The notes under the pieces were generated by a model that worked only from the letters and a program-made list of their open reading frames with translations, did not search any database and had not been told where the DNA came from. A stretch of DNA of 32,562 nucleotides. It comes from Nitrosomonas sp. GTDB taxonomy: Bacteria > Pseudomonadota > Gammaproteobacteria > Burkholderiales > Nitrosomonadaceae. This document shows, piece after piece, positions 9,846 through 21,183 of this stretch (its first letter is position 1; each line of letters starts with the position of its first letter). The DNA is taken from positions 1 to 32,562 of the forward strand of contig NZ_JAKFWH010000012.1 of the NCBI RefSeq assembly GCF_021731985.1. Reading direction: 5' to 3'. The translations under genes were made by a program, and so were the position numbers.

Positions 9846-10100
9846 TTGAGTTAAGAAACAAAGCTCTGCGTAATCAATTAAATATTGAGGTTTTCTGCAT
9901 TCGCACCAGTTTTACGTGTTTTGACTAATTGTTTCGAAGCATCTAATTTGTGGATCTAACGAAGTTTGATATGATGAAACTTATGTTGAGGTATTACCTT
10001 AATGAATGAAGATAGATCATGGGGTGGCAATGATTGAAATATTTCTGAAAAAATATATTGTTTCATTTCGTAAGTCTGATTGCATTTAGGTGGTACAGCT

Positions 10101-10613
10101 ATGGCCCTAGTCAGGGATCGGCATCGAATGGCAGCGATTCTAATGTTTATGGGATTGATTGTTGCCGTTCTCCCAATTCCACTGCTGAGTGGGGTTAGGT
10201 CGACTTCGGGTTTCCTCGAGAATCTTGAACACGCCTTAGTGCAAGTTTTTCCTGTCGCCAAGAGTCCAATTTTTGACGACGTTTCCCTTGGCAGAGAAGA
10301 CATAACCGCACAGGTTATTAGCTATCCTCATCCATCTGGGAAAGAGCTGTTGATCGAATTTCCTCGTGCTATGCCTCTGGATGAAATCCGCATCGTCTTG
10401 CTAGCGGGGGATGCGGAGGAAGGTGGGCGCTTACGGGCAGATCAATCCAAGGCGAAGCGTCTTCGCTTTCGTGAATGGGTTACTAACCGTTCGGCATTCG
10501 CCGTTCCGTATCGATACTTTCTTCTTTGTGGATTGGTTCTAGGGTTCATTGGAGCCTTTCTGATTTTATTTGGTTATCGCCATGTCGCGTCGCCATCTGA
10601 TGACTCTACCTAA
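10101..10613 (+). CDS. Uncharacterised two-TM protein
   Basis: I do not recognise this 170-residue protein. It starts at ATG 10101 behind AGGTGG. It has a hydrophobic helix near residues 11-30 (MAAILMFMGLIVAVLPIPLL), a soluble middle of about 105 residues with no known motif, and a second strong hydrophobic helix near the C-terminus (YFLLCGLVLGFIGAFLILFGY) followed by a short polar tail. This suggests an inner-membrane protein with one loop, probably periplasmic. It has no operon partner: the gaps on both sides exceed 200 bp. Biased composition supports a real gene, but the family is unknown. Confidence 0.65.
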   Translation: MALVRDRHRMAAILMFMGLIVAVLPIPLLSGVRSTSGFLENLEHALVQVFPVAKSPIFDDVSLGREDITAQVISYPHPSGKELLIEFPRAMPLDEIRIVLLAGDAEEGGRLRADQSKAKRLRFREWVTNRSAFAVPYRYFLLCGLVLGFIGAFLILFGYRHVASPSDDST

Positions 10614-10826
10614 TATTTTGTAAGCTGAATCTACTGCAAGCAACTTCGATGTATCAGCAGAAGCCAAAATTTAAAGTTGCACTTTTTAACCGGTTTTTGT
10701 GAGGAAATTGGCTGTCTTGAATACGCTCTTCAACAGTCTCTGGCTAATCACGAGTTGATAAATGGGGATACGCCACAGCTATAATGACGACTATAAATTT
10801 CTTCTCAATCAACCGATAAGCCTAAA

Positions 10827-11240
10827 ATGGACAATCTGGATATTCGCTGGCAGCAGCGATTTGCGAACTACAAAAAAGCCTTGCTGCAACTGCAAAGCGC
10901 AGTTGATCTCAGCAAACAACGTGCACTCAGCCAATTGGAAAAACAGGGTGTCATCCAGGCATTCGAATTTACCCATGAATTAGCTTGGAATATGTTGAAA
11001 GATTTCTTGCGGGATCAGGGCAACCAAAATATCAAAGGTTCAAAAGACGCGACCCGTGAAGCGTTTAAAGTTGAACTCATCAGCGATGGTGAGCAGTGGA
11101 TGGCGATGATTCAAAGCCGCAATATCTCATCGCATACCTACGACGAGCGTACAGCCGAGCTGTTGGTAGATACGATTATCCGCAACTACTATCCGCTGTT
11201 CGTCACGCTGAAAACAGAAATGGAAAAGTATCTGCCGTGA
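10827..11240 (+). CDS. HepT-like HEPN toxin (nucleotidyltransferase substrate-binding protein family)
   Basis: This 137-residue all-helical protein belongs to the HI0074/HEPN family. The HEPN RNase motif RX4-6HXY is intact: R98, H103, Y105 in SRNISSHTYDE. In type VII HepT/MntA systems the toxin is an RNase that the cognate nucleotidyltransferase silences by adding AMP groups to the motif tyrosine. The block FEFTHELAWNMLKDFLRDQG is typical of the family. Its TGA overlaps the GTG start of the next gene, as expected for a coupled toxin-antitoxin pair. Whether the pair acts as a toxin system or in another nucleotidyl-transfer role is not decided by sequence. Confidence 0.85.
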   Translation: MDNLDIRWQQRFANYKKALLQLQSAVDLSKQRALSQLEKQGVIQAFEFTHELAWNMLKDFLRDQGNQNIKGSKDATREAFKVELISDGEQWMAMIQSRNISSHTYDERTAELLVDTIIRNYYPLFVTLKTEMEKYLP

Positions 11241-11566
11241 ACCAGGAGCGCGCATTTGGTTTATCGTCCACCACATTGGAAAAACTCAACAGTGTATTCG
11301 CGCAGTATGCTGCCATCGATTCGGTACTGATTTACGGTTCACGCGCCAAAGGAAATTACCGTGCAGGTTCCGATATTGATCTGACCATCAAAGGCAGCGA
11401 GATTTCATTCGCCGAATTCATGCAGATTGAAGATCAGATTGACGATTTGATGCTGCCTTATACCGTGGATTTATCGCAATATCGCCAGCTTGAAAATGTC
11501 GACCTAGTTGCGCATATCGATCGGGTTGGCGTAGCCATTTACGACAAGGAAACGTTCGGGAAATAA
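11237..11566 (+). CDS. MntA-like minimal nucleotidyltransferase antitoxin
   Basis: This is a 109-residue minimal nucleotidyltransferase. The catalytic signature GSX10DXD is complete: G34-S35, then D46 and D48 (YGSRAKGNYRAGSDIDL), with a likely third acidic residue in TVDLS (D79). In type VII systems such enzymes transfer AMP to the HEPN toxin and neutralise it. The start is GTG 11237-11239, overlapping the TGA of the preceding hepT-like gene. An open frame extends upstream of this GTG, but that part is only the other-frame reading of hepT. Confidence 0.87.
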   Translation: MNQERAFGLSSTTLEKLNSVFAQYAAIDSVLIYGSRAKGNYRAGSDIDLTIKGSEISFAEFMQIEDQIDDLMLPYTVDLSQYRQLENVDLVAHIDRVGVAIYDKETFGK

Positions 11567-11579
11567 GCAATTTATTGTT

Positions 11580-11754
11580 TGCGAACGAAGGGGCGCGACT
11601 TCCAATCCTACTTCACGCAGATAGTGGCTTTGCTCGATTCACATGACGACAAAACATCCCTTGCTGCGCACGGTGATAATGTCTTCCGTCTTATCCGCCA
11701 GATCTTCTTACAGGCACGCAATTCTTTGGTCTTTAGATCGTTGGCTATAATCAG
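11580..11754 (-). pseudogene. Decayed YefM/RelB-type antitoxin copy
   Basis: Read on the minus strand, this stretch is a clear nucleotide homologue of the intact antitoxin gene at 13212-13460. The opening is CTGATTATAGCCAACGATCT instead of ATGATTACAGCCAATGATCT, so the start codon is lost. A G is missing in the GGAATT run (frameshift), GAA has become TAA in the CTGGAAGAA context, and AAA after ATG has become TGA. The match fades after about 170 bp, so the 3' part is missing, and no toxin gene follows. It lies 10 bp after the stop of the 91-aa gene on the same strand. Confidence 0.85.
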
Positions 11755-11764
11755 CTTGGTCGGA

Positions 11765-12040
11765 TTAAGAAATGTCAGTGATTCTACGCAGAAGTTGTGG
11801 CGATACGGTCCATTTATTGCCATCTTCGGCAAGGATGGAGACAGTTTTTTTGTTGTAGCGCGTAATGATTCCAAATACCGGAGGTTCATTGTCAGGCTCG
11901 AAGCAAACTTTGTCACCAATTGAGAATGCAAGCATGCTTGTGTGAGCTCGCATTTGGCGGAGAAAGCGAAGTCGTTCAACGATTCGTCTGTTAAGATCAA
12001 TGAGTTCTGATTCATTCAATTGATCAATATCGATTTTCAT
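11765..12040 (-). CDS. Conserved 91-aa protein of unknown function
   Basis: This protein has an N-terminal helical half (MKIDIDQLNESELIDLNRRIVERLRFL) and a C-terminal small beta-barrel-like half (FSIGDKVCFEPD, GIITRYNKKTVSILAEDG, WTVSPQLLRRI). The second half resembles KOW/SH3-like nucleic-acid or protein binding folds in its strand pattern, but that is only an impression. A good ribosome site (AAAGGGGAA) precedes ATG 12040. I believe similar short proteins occur singly in many proteobacteria, but I cannot name the family. It is followed on the same strand by the decayed antitoxin. Confidence 0.75.
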   Translation of the reverse strand: MKIDIDQLNESELIDLNRRIVERLRFLRQMRAHTSMLAFSIGDKVCFEPDNEPPVFGIITRYNKKTVSILAEDGNKWTVSPQLLRRITDIS

Positions 12041-14115: not shown

Positions 14116-14289
14116 AAAAAATCATCCTTCGACTGATGCACTTTCCAGCATCGGCACATCCTGCCATACTGCAGATTAATTTTTTAGCATGGCGTCACGC
14201 ATGCGCACGGAAATTCCGGGCGGCCAATGTGCCAAATGTGTGTCACCAGAGTGACGATTCTGGCGGCAAAAAATTTCGAAGGGGATTGC

Positions 14290-15564
14290 ATGACTCAGAT
14301 CACTGAAATTATCAAAAATGCGGGCCGATGGCTGGAACAGCAGCAGGATAGTGAATCGAAGGGATGGGGCGAGCGTCGCGGCAGTCATGTCAATGTACTG
14401 AATACTGCCGAGGCGATGATTGCTTTGATCGATAGCGGGATTTGTCATGCGGGCACTAGCTCGATCCGCGGCGCGGTTGATTTTCTTCTGAAACATCAAA
14501 CAGTGGATGGCCAAGATGCTGGTTCGTGGCCACGGGGGTTAACCACGGATGACGGTAAAACCATCGATATTCCTGACTTGGTGCGTACTTGCTATGCGAT
14601 TCAGGCGCTCATCAAAGCCGGTAAGGGGATTGACGAAGGCCCGGTGCAATTGGCGCTGATCTGGCTGCTTGGGCGCAGAAATGAAAATACAAAAGGCTGG
14701 AGTTACGCCCGAGGTAAGCCCGATGCACTGATGCCGACTTGTTTTGCGCTGACAGCTTTGCTGGATGCCTACGATGCCTATCCTGGCGCTTATCAAAGCC
14801 AGATATCAGAAAGTCTGCAACATTTGGTGAATGCTTATTACAACGATGGGGGAGATGAAATTCGCGGCTCATTCGGTGCGCCGGGGCCCCTGCAGGGCGT
14901 ACACACAATCCATGCTGCATTGGTATTACAAATTGCGCGCAACAATAATTTAAGTCCATTTCTGGAACAGGAAAAACAGGCCATCGAATGGCTGCTGCGG
15001 AATCCGGATAAAGCCATCAGGTTGCGAGAAGAATGGGTGGAAATTGACCAAACCAAAATTGCGCATGGCCAAACCGGCGGTTATGGCTTTATGTTCATGA
15101 CCGATACCTTGTTGATGCGGCTTCTTCTCGGATCGGAGAATTTGGATGATAAGAAAAGCGCATTGGCGCATGAAGCTATGCATAGCCTTAAAGACAAGAT
15201 CGATGAAAACACCGGGGCTTTTTATGGGCCGCGATTATTTTCCTGGGCCACAGCAAAAGCATTGCCTGCCTTGGCTGTTTTGCAAAAGCATGCCGGTACG
15301 GAATATCCGGATCTTCCTGCGCGCACGCCGGAATCCCGGTCTGAATCCACCGGCTGGAAAATCGCCCCGGTTATCATCATCATGGGATTTGCAACCCTGC
15401 TCTCCGGGCTTGGTTTTTATTTGATGGTTACCGAGAAATTCGGTCTTCTGTCCTTTACCTTTTTTGTCGTGATGTTGTTAGCTGCCCTCCTGGTCTATGG
15501 CCATATTAAAGAAAAAACTTTCAAAGAATTATTAAGCAGCCTTGGGGGGCTATTAAAAAAATAA
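14290..15564 (+). CDS. Prenyltransferase/squalene-oxidase repeat (alpha/alpha toroid) protein with C-terminal membrane anchor
   Basis: This 424-residue protein has a terpene-cyclase-like alpha/alpha toroid (about 1-335) made of repeated helix pairs. Typical repeat landmarks are GWGERRGSHVNVLNTAEAMIALIDSG, TKGWSYARGKPDALMPTCFALTALLDAY and GGYGFMFMTDTLLMRLLL. No DXDD or DCTAE cyclase motif is visible, so it is unlikely to be a true squalene-hopene cyclase. A Ser/Pro/Arg-rich linker leads to two hydrophobic segments (about 357-379 and 385-404), so the toroid is probably cytoplasmic and membrane-tethered. The start ATG 14290 is preceded by AAGGGGA; the frame is open further upstream to GTG 14227 without a comparable ribosome site. 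The next gene, a HAD protein, begins 42 bp downstream and is likely cotranscribed. Function unknown. Confidence 0.82.
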   Translation: MTQITEIIKNAGRWLEQQQDSESKGWGERRGSHVNVLNTAEAMIALIDSGICHAGTSSIRGAVDFLLKHQTVDGQDAGSWPRGLTTDDGKTIDIPDLVRTCYAIQALIKAGKGIDEGPVQLALIWLLGRRNENTKGWSYARGKPDALMPTCFALTALLDAYDAYPGAYQSQISESLQHLVNAYYNDGGDEIRGSFGAPGPLQGVHTIHAALVLQIARNNNLSPFLEQEKQAIEWLLRNPDKAIRLREEWVEIDQTKIAHGQTGGYGFMFMTDTLLMRLLLGSENLDDKKSALAHEAMHSLKDKIDENTGAFYGPRLFSWATAKALPALAVLQKHAGTEYPDLPARTPESRSESTGWKIAPVIIIMGFATLLSGLGFYLMVTEKFGLLSFTFFVVMLLAALLVYGHIKEKTFKELLSSLGGLLKK

Positions 15565-17053: not shown

Positions 17054-17227
17054 GACGGTAATCTCCTTTTGTTCCATCCAGCCTAAAGCATGACAGAAAT
17101 ACTATGACTATGAGGATTCATGTAGAATTATACCGTTGGGTTCGAATGGCCGGGCCAGCGCCAAACGATTGAGAAATCGAGTTTAACCATTAAGCCATAG
17201 TGAATATTTTATAGAGGAAAATTTTAG

Positions 17228-17422
17228 ATGAATTTTAAATTTAGCGTCGCTTGTATTATTGGCCTAAGTATCGCACTGATCGGTTGTGGCGGAGTTCCCG
17301 AAGCAAGTTCGGAAAATTGTGCAGGAAGAGGACTGGAGTCATCCCTTACAGCTTTTAAGAACGATGAAGCTGGACGGCAAGCCTTCCTCGATAGTTGTGA
17401 TGCGATGAAGAAAGGAAAATAA
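17228..17422 (+). CDS. Small putative lipoprotein
   Basis: This 64-residue protein starts MNFKFSVACIIGLSIALIGC, a lipoprotein signal with lipobox LIGC and predicted lipidated Cys20. The mature part (about 45 residues) contains two further Cys residues (NCAGRG and DSCDAM) that could form a disulfide, and a charged C-terminus. The ribosome site GAGGAAAA precedes ATG 17228. A perfect 15-bp terminator stem follows about 80 bp after the stop. I do not recognise a family. Confidence 0.72.
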   Translation: MNFKFSVACIIGLSIALIGCGGVPEASSENCAGRGLESSLTAFKNDEAGRQAFLDSCDAMKKGK

Positions 17423-17505
17423 ACGATCCACTAAAAATTCAAGCCAATTCCAGGAGTAGCTTTTAGATCTTTTAAAAGAAGCTGGGGTTGATGCTACTTT
17501 CAACG

Positions 17506-17547
17506 AGCGGCGAATCGAAGTCTTCTTCGATTCGCCGCTGTGTTTTT
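17506..17547 (+). terminator. Strong rho-independent terminator
   Basis: A perfect 15-bp stem, AGCGGCGAATCGAAG (17506-17520) and CTTCGATTCGCCGCT (17525-17539), has a TCTT loop and a T-run at 17543-17547. It terminates the small lipoprotein transcript and insulates the RAYT remnant. Confidence 0.9.
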
Positions 17548-17586
17548 CTATATGCCATTGTCTGAACAATGCTTGAGAAATAAGTA

Positions 17587-18323
17587 GAATTACGACGATA
17601 GCTTACTAAATACACTAATTATTCCATATTTACCTCGTATTGTAATTCCCGGCTATCCACATCATGTGACACAACGTGGAAATCGTCGCGCTCGAACATT
17701 CTTTGAGGATGGTGACTACGAACTTTATGGGGTATTGCTAGGGGAGGCAGCCCGAAAGGCCGAAACAGAGATTTGGTGCTACTACTTGATGCCCAATCAT
17801 GTGCATATCATTATTGTTCCTTCGGATGAAGATGGATTACGCCGCACTTTTGCCGATGCACATCGGCGTTATACCGGATATATAAATGCTCGCCTGCAAG
17901 TGACAGGGCATTTATGGCAAGGGTGGTTTGGCTCAATTGTGATAGATGTGGAACACCTAGCGCATGCCGCCGTGCGATACGTCTCTCGATGAGCCCGGTT
18001 CGTGCTGGATTGGTTGAGCGGGCAGAAGATTGGTGCTGGTCGAGTGTTGCCAGTCACTTGTCAGCGCAGGACAACGAGTTGGTCAAGGTTGCACCTGTGC
18101 TAAATCGTTATGGTGACTTCGAAACCTTTCTTGCTCAGGAAGATGTTAACGAGGCATTCAAAAGACTTCCTCAGTCGGAAACAACGGGATGACCCTTGGG
18201 TTCAGAGGATTGGATCGAAAAATTAACGGCAATGACTGATCGTGAACTTAAGGCGAAGAAACGTGGCCTCCAAAAAGTAAAGGGTGAGAGTTACGTGTAT
18301 TTAGTAAACTGTTACCGTAATCC
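17587..18323 (+). mobile_element. RAYT (REP-associated transposase) element with terminal inverted repeats, decayed
   Basis: The left end at 17587-17615 is GAATTACGACGATAGCTTAC followed by TAAATACAC. The right end at 18295-18323 is GTGTATTTAGTAAACTGTTA followed by CCGTAATCC, which is its inverted counterpart with a few mismatches. The repeats bracket a Y1/HUH-type transposase gene. Related ends are found at 20909-20934 and 21049-21079. Confidence 0.75.
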
Positions 18324-18336
18324 AGACATTGCATAA
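17621..18336 (+). pseudogene. REP-associated tyrosine transposase (RAYT, Y1 HUH family), pseudogene
   Basis: In three pieces this reads as a RAYT: LPRIVIPGYPHHVTQRGNRR, the HUH block YYLMPNHVHIIIVP, then HRRYTGYINARLQVTGHLWQGWF and, in the next frame, SPVRAGLVERAEDWCWSSVASHL. Lesions: the initiator is ATT at 17621-17623, where the deleted relative at 20909-21079 has ATG in the aligned position; there is a frameshift with an in-frame TGA near 17990; and CGA appears changed to TGA at 18190-18192, before PLGSEDWIEKLTAMTDRELKAKK. RAYTs are single-strand transposases thought to mobilise REP palindromes. The GTG at 17666 could start only a truncated product. Inactive unless suppressed. Confidence 0.88.
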
Positions 18337-18490
18337 ATTCGCACGATTATTACACATGATATTGTTTTAAAAAGTGATTTTTAGAATAAATGGTGTGGTT
18401 ATTCATACGCCTGACTGAGATAAATTTCTTGTGGAATCAAGAGATAAGTGAGGGAATGCGCAATTCATGCAATATCCGGGATAGTACTAA

Positions 18491-18532
18491 CAACTGCGCC
18501 TTACCGTAAAAATTCACGGTAAGGCGCAGTTG
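18491..18532 (-). terminator. Strong hairpin after the duplicated-module gene
   Basis: A perfect 17-bp stem, CAACTGCGCCTTACCGT (18491-18507) against 18516-18532, has an 8-base loop. It starts 23 bp after the stop of the minus-strand 753-aa gene. The T-run on the minus side is weak (TTAGT), so it could be a terminator or a 3'-end stabilising structure. Confidence 0.65.
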
Positions 18533-18554
18533 TTTGACTTCTGAATTGTGAGTT

Positions 18555-20816
18555 CTAAACTAACTCATCCTCGTATGCAGAAATGATCTCAGTAATCGTC
18601 GATCCTGCAGTGATTGCTTTGGCAGAATTATCAGTTTCAATAGCTTCTCTCAAATCCTGCAATGCATTTTGCATCTTTACACGCTGCTGCGTGCCTAAAC
18701 GCAATTCCAGGTCAGGCAAGAAGATAGTGGCATATAAAGATATTCTCTCAGAAGCAAGCAGTGCCCGATTCCGATCAACACCGAACGTTGATTCAATCTG
18801 ACTGATATTTCTTCTAAATTGACCAATAACCCCTTTGTTGATGTCACTAACGATTTCATTAGCGACCACATCCGCCAAATCACCGGTTAATTGGGCTTTG
18901 ATGCGATCGTTGCCTGATGGATTATCCTGGGCGATAAATACTTCAACAGTACGGTAGAGAAGATCACCTCCCAACTGCCCTACCCTTGCTTCATCAACAT
19001 CGATACTTCTATTAGCAATAACCCCCTCGACTTCGTGCAATACGCCGTTCAAGAAGCCCCTGACCAGCGGAACGATGATGTTTTCGCGTGCTATCGCAAG
19101 AGTGGTGCGGTCATTTGCATTCGCTTTGCTTAAAGCTTCTCTGCCATTCAAAAATGCCAGCGAAAACTGGTCCTCCGGATATGGATCCGGACCAGCCTCA
19201 TCTTTGAGCGTTTGTTTATCCTTTGTCAATACCTTGTTTACCTTGCCGACAGCAAGCATGATCGCCAAATAGGCTGTTTCCACCCTATCCCATTCCAGTG
19301 CCAATTTATCCGTTGCCAAACTATCAAAATTATCAAGCACTAATGTTGTTCGATTGTAAATGGCAAGCGCAAAAACTCGTTGTATCGATTTGTCGATTAC
19401 TTGCGAAGCTAACGCAACTTGATTTCCATTTCTGACATTTTCAATAGCTGCTAGAACATTTTGATCAATCGTCAATCCATAGGCCAGATCAATGATTTGA
19501 GTTAATTGCTGCAACTCTCCGGTGTATGCTGCAGCAATTGCTTCCGCATTCACAGGATTTTCTGCACGATATCCACTAATCTGATAATAACTTGTTGAAG
19601 CATTATAAACAAAACCCGTATCGATTGTAGTCCTGGGATCGATCAAATTTAGCTCCTTCTGATAGCTAAGCAGAATCGCCGCTATCGCATCACGAGCTGC
19701 TGCAGATTTAGGCACGCTATTTTCGCTGCTTGCAGTTTGCAGATTACTGAGTGCAGTTTCCAGATTGCCACGCACTTCAGCGCCTAAGCGCACCTCGACA
19801 TCCGGTAGAAAGACTCTAGCATAAGCTGCTGCTCCTGAAGCTTCTGACATAGCTTGAAAGCGATTTACACCAATACTTATTGATTGGTAACTCATTTCGC
19901 CATAAACCTGACCAACAAATCCTTTGATTAATTCACTAACGATTTCATAGGCTACAACATTTGCAGCATTTCCTGCCAGTTGCGCTTTAATGAGTTGATT
20001 GCCGACCCGGTTACCCTGCGCGACCAATGATTCAATAATACGATAAAAAAATTCCCCTTCTTTTAGCGATACGGCTGTCGTCTCCGGATCCGTGCTTCTA
20101 TTCTCAAGAACACTGGCCACTGTACGTAAAACCCCAATATAATAAGCTTGGGCTAATGCAATTCTTGTGGTAGAGAACTCAACAGCAATAACGCCGGAAT
20201 CTTCCTCGGGATTACTTTTATCCAGTGCCCTCCTAATCCGCGCAACCGATTCATTAAACTGAACATCCAGTGCTGGGTTACTTCCTGAAATTATTGTTTG
20301 TCTATCAGCACTCAGTATTTCATTGGTTCTTGCAACAGTGCCGGTAATCGCTTGAAATGCTGCAACTACGTCATCCAACATTTGAATTAATTCAGCAGAT
20401 GTTGCAGTGTTAAATCGACGTTGTATCATTGTGATACGATTCAAAATACTTTGGTAAAAAACGCGTTGCAAAGTCTTGTCGATCACCTGAGTCGCCAGTC
20501 TTGGCTCATTTCCACTTTTGATCTCTTCAATTGCAACCAGGATGTCACTATTCAGTTTGAGTGAATTGATCTCAGCTTCCTGTGCCAATATTTGTAACGC
20601 TCCCGTGTAGGCACTAGCAATGGCATCGCCATTAATTGGCGTCTCTTTACGCAGCGTTTCAATAGTCTTGTAAGCAGCCACGGCCTTCTGAATTGTATTG
20701 GTATCAGCAAAACCTGCAGCAAACAAGCTCGCATTACCCATACCAAATACAATAAAAATTAATCTCACAGTCAGAGATTTACTCATTGAAGTCATGAGTT
20801 TCTTTAATAAAAACAT
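18555..20816 (-). CDS. Exported protein of two tandem ~345-residue modules, family not recognised
   Basis: This 753-residue protein has an N-terminal signal-like segment (SLTVRLIFIVFGMGNASLFAAGFA, about 14-37) and is otherwise soluble and mostly helical, rich in A, I, E, R and N. It is an internal duplication: AIASAYTGALQ (65-75) and AIAAAYTGELQ (426-436); VIDKTLQRVF (111-120) and VIDKSIQRVF (473-482); IKAQLAGNAANVVAYEIVSE (276-295) and IKAQLTGDLADVVANEIVSD (639-658); VFLPDVEVRLG (335-345) and IFLPDLELRLG (698-708). The offset is a steady 361-363 residues. There is no cysteine, no CXXCH and no known catalytic motif. AAGGAA precedes ATG 20816. It is monocistronic, with a strong hairpin behind. 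Probably periplasmic or secreted; no function can be assigned. Confidence 0.85.
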   Translation of the reverse strand: MFLLKKLMTSMSKSLTVRLIFIVFGMGNASLFAAGFADTNTIQKAVAAYKTIETLRKETPINGDAIASAYTGALQILAQEAEINSLKLNSDILVAIEEIKSGNEPRLATQVIDKTLQRVFYQSILNRITMIQRRFNTATSAELIQMLDDVVAAFQAITGTVARTNEILSADRQTIISGSNPALDVQFNESVARIRRALDKSNPEEDSGVIAVEFSTTRIALAQAYYIGVLRTVASVLENRSTDPETTAVSLKEGEFFYRIIESLVAQGNRVGNQLIKAQLAGNAANVVAYEIVSELIKGFVGQVYGEMSYQSISIGVNRFQAMSEASGAAAYARVFLPDVEVRLGAEVRGNLETALSNLQTASSENSVPKSAAARDAIAAILLSYQKELNLIDPRTTIDTGFVYNASTSYYQISGYRAENPVNAEAIAAAYTGELQQLTQIIDLAYGLTIDQNVLAAIENVRNGNQVALASQVIDKSIQRVFALAIYNRTTLVLDNFDSLATDKLALEWDRVETAYLAIMLAVGKVNKVLTKDKQTLKDEAGPDPYPEDQFSLAFLNGREALSKANANDRTTLAIARENIIVPLVRGFLNGVLHEVEGVIANRSIDVDEARVGQLGGDLLYRTVEVFIAQDNPSGNDRIKAQLTGDLADVVANEIVSDINKGVIGQFRRNISQIESTFGVDRNRALLASERISLYATIFLPDLELRLGTQQRVKMQNALQDLREAIETDNSAKAITAGSTITEIISAYEDELV

Positions 20817-20908
20817 TATAGGAATTCCTTTCTAAAATTAGCTGACATCAATACATACAAATCATGCCCGTGATTTTTTACCCAGTTGGAATTCCAGAAC
20901 TGGACGTA
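20817..20908 (-). promoter_or_regulatory. 5' region of the duplicated-module gene with a small palindrome
   Basis: This short stretch carries the ribosome site (AAGGAA on the minus strand) and, at 20882-20903, an inverted repeat CCAGTT...AACTGG around GGAATTCCAG. It lies between the gene and a RAYT-derived element, so the promoter must be here or inside that element. No confident -35/-10 pair was identified. Confidence 0.3.
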
Positions 20909-21079
20909 GAATTACGGTGACAGCTTACTAAAGCTACTTAACTTCCACCCTTTACTTTTTTGGGCTGCGTTTCTTCATCTTAAGTTCGCGCCAGTCATGG
21001 GAATTACAGCACGAGGTAAGCTAGCCATGCTAGCAATATGGCATAACTAGTGTATTTAGTTAACCGTCACCGCAATTCC
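20909..21079 (-). mobile_element. 171-bp internally deleted RAYT derivative (REPIN/MITE-like)
   Basis: Read on the minus strand, the element begins with the RAYT left terminal repeat (GGAATTGCGGTGACGGTTAA), then ATG GCT AGC TTA CCT CGT GCT GTA ATT CCC, the first ten codons of a RAYT (MASLPRAVIP). It then jumps to the RAYT 3' end: in another frame, RELKMKKRSPKK and a stop. It ends with the right terminal repeat GTAAGCTGTCACCGTAATTC. The whole transposase core is gone. The 3' part closely matches 18238-18290 of the RAYT pseudogene, but the details differ, so it is not simply a deletion copy of that locus. Confidence 0.85.
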
Positions 21080-21183
21080 ACGTGCCGCAAGCGGCGAAAC
21101 TGATCGAAGAAACCGGCTACAAGCGGCGCCTGCCTGAACTGCAGAAATTGCAGAAAATAATCGGTGAACAGCCATTCAGTTAG
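21079..21183 (+). pseudogene. C-terminal gene fragment next to the RAYT derivative
   Basis: One frame reads HVPQAAKLIEETGYKRRLPE, then LQKLQKIIGEQPFS and TAG at 21181-21183. It has protein-like composition with no start codon, and begins exactly where the RAYT-derived element ends. It looks like the tail of a helical (possibly TPR-containing) protein whose remainder was lost; the family is a guess. Confidence 0.4.

Follow-up and report, generated by a model that had tools for sequence, protein, structure and literature searches.

An exported two-module protein of Nitrosomonas as a candidate accessory of receptor-linked iron uptake

The window analysed here, a stretch of 32,562 nucleotides from a Nitrosomonas sp. 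genome (contig NZ_JAKFWH010000012.1, positions 1 to 32,562), carries a gene for an exported protein made of two homologous modules. The relatives of the module that were identified belong to the window's genus or to anammox bacteria. The initial annotation of this DNA offered no role for it; genome context points to iron acquisition. Because the gene in most related genomes follows a TonB-dependent receptor in an apparently iron-controlled operon, the protein is probably an unrecognised part of iron acquisition, and we assign a probability of about 0.6 to its being an exported accessory of a Fur-controlled iron-uptake operon.

Two homologous modules behind a signal segment

The internal duplication of the 753-aa protein is beyond doubt. 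Its two halves (residues 31-400 and 396-753) are identical at 131 of 351 aligned positions (37%), with a BLOSUM62 score of 565, whereas 500 shuffled comparisons gave a mean of 44, a standard deviation of 7 and a maximum of 74. Two homologous modules had been proposed in the initial annotation from landmarks repeating every 361-363 residues, and five landmark pairs were found at that spacing; the module length of about 345 residues given there was too short, as the modules measure about 355-360. The protein contains one Trp, one His and, as described, no Cys. Its four most hydrophobic 19-residue windows begin at residues 15-19, in agreement with a signal segment ahead of the modules, the cleavage of which was placed by eye near residue 34. 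Homologues are 55-83% identical across almost the whole length (among the matches listed, the best 120 of 300; about 8000 candidates were scored in each protein search), and the gene is thus intact, as annotated. It also has its own hairpin downstream of the stop codon; no T-run follows the hairpin, and a terminator role is therefore putative. The coordinates of these features are collected in Table 1.

Table 1 Features of the two-module gene and its surroundings in the window
Feature	Position	Strand	Basis or remark
Segment of about 4.0 kb holding the gene and the transposase remnant	17068..21078		Absent at the same place in the relatives G025 and G046
Remnant of an IS200-like / REP-associated tyrosine transposase, apparently two frames	17666..18192	plus	
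Inverted repeat, perfect 19-bp arms, 8-nt loop	18489..18534	minus	20 nt past the stop codon; no T-run
Exported two-module protein gene, intact, 753 aa	18555..20816	minus	ORF call and homologue alignment
Module 2, residues 398-753	18558..19625	minus	Alignment; folded alone, pLDDT 94.4, pTM 0.91
Trp509 codon, sole Trp of the protein	19290..19292	minus	
Module 1, residues 38-397	19626..20705	minus	Half-versus-half alignment, model
Signal segment, residues 1-34	20715..20816	minus	Hydropathy; low-confidence residues 1-35 in the structure model

Structure prediction of a single module, suggested earlier as a check, gave a confident helical domain for module 2 alone (pLDDT 94.4, pTM 0.91) with one small beta hairpin; both modules are predicted to be helical apart from such a hairpin, as had been read from the sequence. 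The modules were also said to match no named family, and this was borne out. Searches with the whole protein gave nothing convincing in Pfam (only Sec10_HB, E 0.012, below the cut-off) or NCBIfam (only TPR_END_plus, E 0.092) and no match among PDB sequences at E 10, for which a module profile gave a single match at E 0.28. When 45 module rows were searched singly against Pfam, any family found at E 0.01 was common to at most two rows. Since the rows disagree, we took the stray matches, Sec10_HB, TPR_END_plus, DUF4856, Lgt1_N and others (the latter in one or two of the 45 rows), to be chance. A fold search of the PDB with the module model had no match at E 0.001; among the 50 matches listed there is a weak resemblance to vinculin, talin and catenin, with a best query-normalised TM of 0.26. 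The two-module exported family is real and without a name, and in the accessible parts of the open literature we found no description of it beyond a remark on the N. europaea genes NE1538-NE1543, discussed below.

Among the 45 module rows, 66 columns are at least 90% identical, including 8 Arg, 2 Lys, 4 Asp, 3 Glu and 3 Tyr. None of them is His, Cys or Met, and the best His column reaches 6 of 45 rows, which speaks against copper or usual haem ligation; copper was consequently dropped as the bound metal. The conserved Arg, Lys, Tyr and acidic columns would fit oxygen ligands or contacts with an anionic ferric siderophore. The stretch IKAQLAGNAANVVAYEIVSE, regarded earlier as part of a functional surface, is indeed conserved, but columns of high conservation occur all over the module and therefore nothing singles it out as a special surface. 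The position of Trp509 is occupied by Trp in all 38 aligned full-length proteins. By module, the Trp of the LEWDR motif is found in 18/18 module-2 rows, in 9/9 rows from anammox bacteria and in 5/18 module-1 rows; P0147, an incomplete protein, has Trp in module 1 and not in module 2.

The probable iron operon of Nitrosomonas and the copy in the window

The 125 genomes searched within the family Nitrosomonadaceae include 85 of the window's genus, 72 of which have the gene, and 40 of three sister genera, none of which has it. In 60 of the 72 gene-bearing genomes, a gene for a TonB-dependent siderophore-type receptor lies on the same strand, no more than 1.3 kb upstream; the gaps between the matched stretches are 97-1286 bp, and at most 267 bp in 57 of the 60. 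The receptor is present in 70 of the 72 genomes, lying elsewhere in 10 of the 70 (some at contig ends), and had no match at E 1e-100 in the other two. Another 6 genomes of the genus, and 34 of the 40 from sister genera, have the receptor but no module gene, and so the module is not essential for the receptor. Of 20 extracted neighbourhoods, 18 have a gene of one receptor cluster upstream in the same orientation, and in 17 this gene is the next open reading frame. Three small opposite-strand frames separate receptor and module gene in L055, and the receptor gene of L048 is a fragment. The two receptors scanned, from L041 and L063, contain the barrel and plug domains of TonB-dependent receptors and exceed the cut-off of the siderophore receptor model TIGR01783 (223.5) with 271 and 295 bits; their best equivalog model is the catecholate receptor Fiu, far under its cut-off.

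Upstream of the receptor, 25 of 37 loci encode the bacterioferritin-associated ferredoxin, bfd (in L063 with a Pfam Fer2_BFD match), and some a bacterioferritin. Scored against what we take to be the Fur-box consensus, 24 of these 25 loci have a Fur-box-like site ahead of bfd, the 12 loci without bfd having been left unscored. The site matches the consensus at 16-17 of 19 positions (15 in one locus), a level equalled by at most 1% of 200 shuffles, and lies 33-271 bp before the bfd match; its commonest sequence is ATTA[AC]GAATCATTCTCATT. The one locus without it, L084, is from a sister genus, and the site is present in each of the 15 loci that combine the module gene with bfd. A Fur box immediately before the receptor was considered and rejected (against shuffles, 2 of 19 loci at 0.005, 17 not below 0.05), as the site precedes bfd. 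Genes for TonB, ExbB and ExbD, named by eye, lie ahead of bfd or the receptor in 4 of the 20 neighbourhoods.

Downstream neighbours were counted in 32 genomes (40 loci minus 8 repeats), 12 of which show at most 1.5 kb of downstream sequence. A multicopper oxidase is encoded there in 8, with a weak fragment in a ninth; 7 encode a di-haem CcP/MauG-like enzyme, and both enzymes occur in one genome. In total, 14 genomes thus have either redox partner, or 15 if the fragment is included. The di-haem enzyme of L041 is above the cut-off of PF03150 and far below that of the MbnH family, TIGR04039 (52 bits). G061 (L047, 6677-12320) has its module gene apart from the receptor: it stands second after fur (PRK09462, 194.6 bits, cut-off 146), with a di-haem CcP-like gene behind it. 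On the opposite strand downstream, 9 of the 20 neighbourhoods (L036-L055) have a cluster that encodes a Gly/Asp-rich repeat protein, RTX-like by eye; a recurrent gene, TPR-like by eye, follows the RTX-like gene in this cluster, which faces the iron operon.

This gene order is like that of the operon NE1538-NE1543 in N. europaea, described in the accessible part of one report as two hypothetical genes, a TonB-dependent receptor, two further hypothetical genes and a multicopper oxidase (PMC10781756). According to the same text, this operon was inhibited when a tripartite culture was kept under simulated microgravity, and a role in iron homeostasis was suggested (PMC10781756). From gene order alone, NE1541 or NE1542 would be the module protein. 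Other partly accessible reports state that a fur mutant of N. europaea overexpresses receptors (PMC3050691), that N. ureae has two TonB-associated ferric siderophore transporters and two bacterioferritins (PMC4786657), and that N. europaea is without a siderophore-making system of its own (PMC9693385).

The copy in the window sits away from the usual operon, between mtfA and a peroxiredoxin gene. In the same genome, the receptor orthologue (77% identity) is on another contig behind TonB-ExbB-ExbD-like genes and bfd, and the operon slot of the module gene is empty: about 660 bp (L063, 11886-12544, contig C24) hold no module remnant and are followed by the flank genes otherwise found behind the module gene. 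The same 660-bp arrangement is seen in the relative G046, which has no module match. At the window site, alignment with the two relatives G025 and G046 runs to position 17067 and resumes at 21079-21086, these genomes having 652-684 bp in between; a third relative, G051, still matches 17063-17515 at 78%. The window site is occupied and the slot is empty; the gene is therefore missing from its operon and stands elsewhere. Mobile remnants had been noted beside the gene, which holds for the window copy: the first frame of the transposase remnant (17666-17992) has a weak IS200-like / REP-associated match (24-28 bits), and the second frame, to 18192, has no match in Pfam. Positions 18430-18480 are repeated at two other places of the genome with 91-92% identity, perhaps as the end of a mobile element. 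Elsewhere in the window, 14227-15564 encode a protein of 445 aa, one part of which weakly resembles squalene-hopene cyclase and which has hydrophobic segments at its C-terminal end.

The window protein is 61% identical to that of G025, while the flanking DNA is 87-95% identical in long blocks. In general, however, identity is about 15 points lower for module proteins than for receptor proteins; the residuals of the window copy range from z -2.3 to +1.4, and it does not stand out from the family in GC3. This copy may have come to its place by relocation or by horizontal acquisition. No Fur-box-like site was found before it (best match 12/19, equalled by 79% of shuffles). Its genome gave no match to the multicopper oxidase, in a search that had no positive control, and only partial matches to the di-haem enzyme (21-25 bits).

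One-module relatives in anammox bacteria

Wider draws of genomes gave two matches each, the window's own genome and one other of its genus, among 369 genomes of the class and among 398 of the phylum. The named matches listed are mostly Nitrosomonas (N. ureae, Is79A3, Nm84, Nm166, JL21), and a few bear the labels of metagenome-assembled genomes of other groups, such as Moraxellaceae or Betaproteobacteria, as given. A module-only query also finds proteins of about 480 residues that are 45-47% identical to module 1, one of them named Candidatus Brocadia sp. WS118. These relatives occur with carboxypeptidase-regulatory-like domains; in the one-module relative of L026, this domain is N-terminal. 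Within Planctomycetota, covered by a pattern scan of contigs and by protein searches, the contig scan with P0128 identified 10 loci in Brocadia, Kuenenia hertensis and Planctomycetota metagenome-assembled genomes. The idea of matches to ammonia oxidisers only needs widening, as relatives also occur beyond the aerobic ammonia oxidisers: anammox bacteria have a one-module form behind a carboxypeptidase-regulatory-like domain.

In an unrooted maximum-likelihood tree of 49 module rows, module 1 forms one clade (97/90) and module 2 another (100/99), and therefore the duplication predates the sampled Nitrosomonas copies. The single modules, ten anammox-type rows and P0169, also form one clade (100/98). 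Since the gene is common to both groups and was not found between them in these searches, the distribution suggests an old transfer between the betaproteobacterial genus and the planctomycete group.

In all nine anammox loci where it is visible, the next same-strand gene after the module gene encodes a protein with two CxxCH (haem) motifs. The sole Pfam match of the one that was scanned is a short CTI stretch barely above the cut-off. A small carboxypeptidase-regulatory-like protein is encoded ahead in six loci (one scanned), and no receptor was recognised by eye beside the anammox module genes. In 9/9 upstream stretches (L026-L028, L030-L035), the module gene is preceded by the conserved sequence TGAGAnnGAGnCT, which belongs to an inverted repeat of the 7-1-7 type and starts 33-41 bp ahead of the start codon. 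Scoring seven of the loci against the Fur consensus placed three beyond all 300 shuffles, two at 0.07-0.08 and two at 0.14-0.24; in L034, one of the last two, the best Fur match is elsewhere than the TGAGAnnGAGnCT repeat. By its sequence, the element resembles a Fur-family site.

Two carboxypeptidase-regulatory-like domains of L026 also resemble part of the Kustd1514 S-layer glycoprotein model, one at 9956-10390 (40 bits) and the other in the N-terminal part of the gene at 10529-11980 (34 bits). An FEA1-related lipoprotein (NF038033) was considered and rejected. The weak NCBIfam match stems from a Gly/Ser region at the C-terminal end of an anammox neighbour; searching 143 genomes yielded four partial matches of 19-29 bits, none above the cut-off, and 14 controls gave none. 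The window protein and its genome have no match to NF038033, and the lipoprotein Cys is absent from this Cys-free protein.

Proposed role and alternatives

The role that we propose draws on the computed signal segment, duplication, fold prediction, cluster place, Fur-box-like site, redox neighbours and distribution. From these we infer periplasmic residence, one shared transcript, binding of iron or siderophore and a relay step. Under iron shortage, Fur would release the operon, and the TonB-dependent receptor would import a ferric siderophore through the outer membrane, probably one that other bacteria produce. In the periplasm, the two-module protein would then take the ferric complex, or iron freed from it, and hold or relay it, while a redox partner, the multicopper oxidase or di-haem enzyme in Nitrosomonas, may alter the state of the iron or its carrier. 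In anammox bacteria, the protein with two haem motifs might act in the same step. A bolder version seems improbable to us as a whole: that the modules are a new class of periplasmic iron carrier with an undescribed helical fold, common to aerobic ammonia oxidisers and anammox bacteria by an ancient inter-phylum transfer, and that the iron is loaded or released when a di-haem enzyme or cytochrome either oxidises the conserved Trp or delivers electrons to the bound iron.

Imelysin and EfeO, of the peptidase M75 type, are exported helical proteins of similar size from iron loci, sometimes with di-haem partners, and the module protein is like them in all these respects. It differs from imelysin, which we take to be PF09375 with a GxHxxE-type His motif, in having no conserved His for such a motif (best column 6/45). 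The imelysin family is absent from the whole-protein Pfam matches at E 10 and from those of the 45 module rows at E 0.01; no imelysin fold is among the PDB fold matches listed either, an absence that carries no weight. FhuD and FeuA, binding proteins of ABC siderophore importers, have two alpha/beta lobes. The proposed receipt of a ferric siderophore behind a receptor resembles their function, but the module model is helical, with one small hairpin (pLDDT 94.4), and no ABC genes were noticed by eye among the recurrent neighbour clusters listed. The pairs MbnP/MbnH, MopE/SACCP and CorA/CorB offer a further likeness: in the accessible part of a report on them, the partner lies beside a MauG-like di-haem enzyme, has a conserved Trp and is often near a TonB-dependent transporter (PMC3621798). 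Unlike these partners, the module has no conserved His, Cys or Met and a di-haem enzyme in a minority of loci, and the window protein has no NCBIfam match to the MbnP partner family, TIGR04052, which that text names (PMC3621798).

These pairs nevertheless set a precedent, with MopE, CorA and MbnP (PMC3621798, as far as accessible), for the module being the substrate of a di-haem MauG/MbnH-like enzyme that oxidises Trp509, the modified module then binding metal as is reported for MopE. The Trp is kept in 18/18 module-2 and 9/9 anammox rows and is the only one of the window protein; the candidate enzyme is encoded downstream in 7 of 32 genomes and in G061 stays with the module gene though the receptor does not. 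It is absent next door in most loci, however, and the persistence of the Trp in loci without it means that the residue may be structural only. The scanned anammox partner is of another family, with the CTI stretch as its sole Pfam match; the window's own genome offers only the partial enzyme matches of 21-25 bits, P0147 has no Trp in module 2, and the NCBIfam search gave no match to the MbnP family. Altogether, we regard Trp oxidation as the role of the module as quite improbable. That the module is instead an outer-membrane or surface scaffold that holds the receptor and envelope proteins, with no iron binding of its own, we consider unlikely. Helical bundles weakly like vinculin, talin and catenin would suit a scaffold, as would the resemblance of the anammox-form domain to part of the Kustd1514 S-layer glycoprotein (34 bits), but vinculin and talin likeness is common for helical bundles, here with no match at E ≤0.001 and a best TM of 0.26 among the 50 matches listed, and a scaffold leaves the iron operon unexplained.

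The module protein could also be an unrelated envelope or stress protein that only shares an operon with the receptor. The two genes are apart in 10 of the 70 genomes with both (some at contig ends), the window copy stands alone, and the receptor is more widespread than the module; against this, the close linkage in 60 of 72 genomes extends across the genus, and in G061 the gene is near fur with a di-haem gene even when parted from the receptor. We consider this reading very unlikely.

Ammonia-oxidising bacteria need much iron for their haem enzymes. To our knowledge, the periplasmic iron-handling proteins behind the many receptors of N. europaea have been little studied, and the module family provides a conserved candidate for a periplasmic iron handler, one that has a confidently predicted structure, stands behind a Fur-type site and has redox neighbours. 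What is new here is the genome context: the link to the receptor, the operon with bfd and a Fur-box-like site, the redox neighbours and the anammox relatives. The family occurs in both of the ammonia-using groups that are run together in partial nitritation-anammox treatment, a process for wastewater (PMC9909701, in its accessible part).
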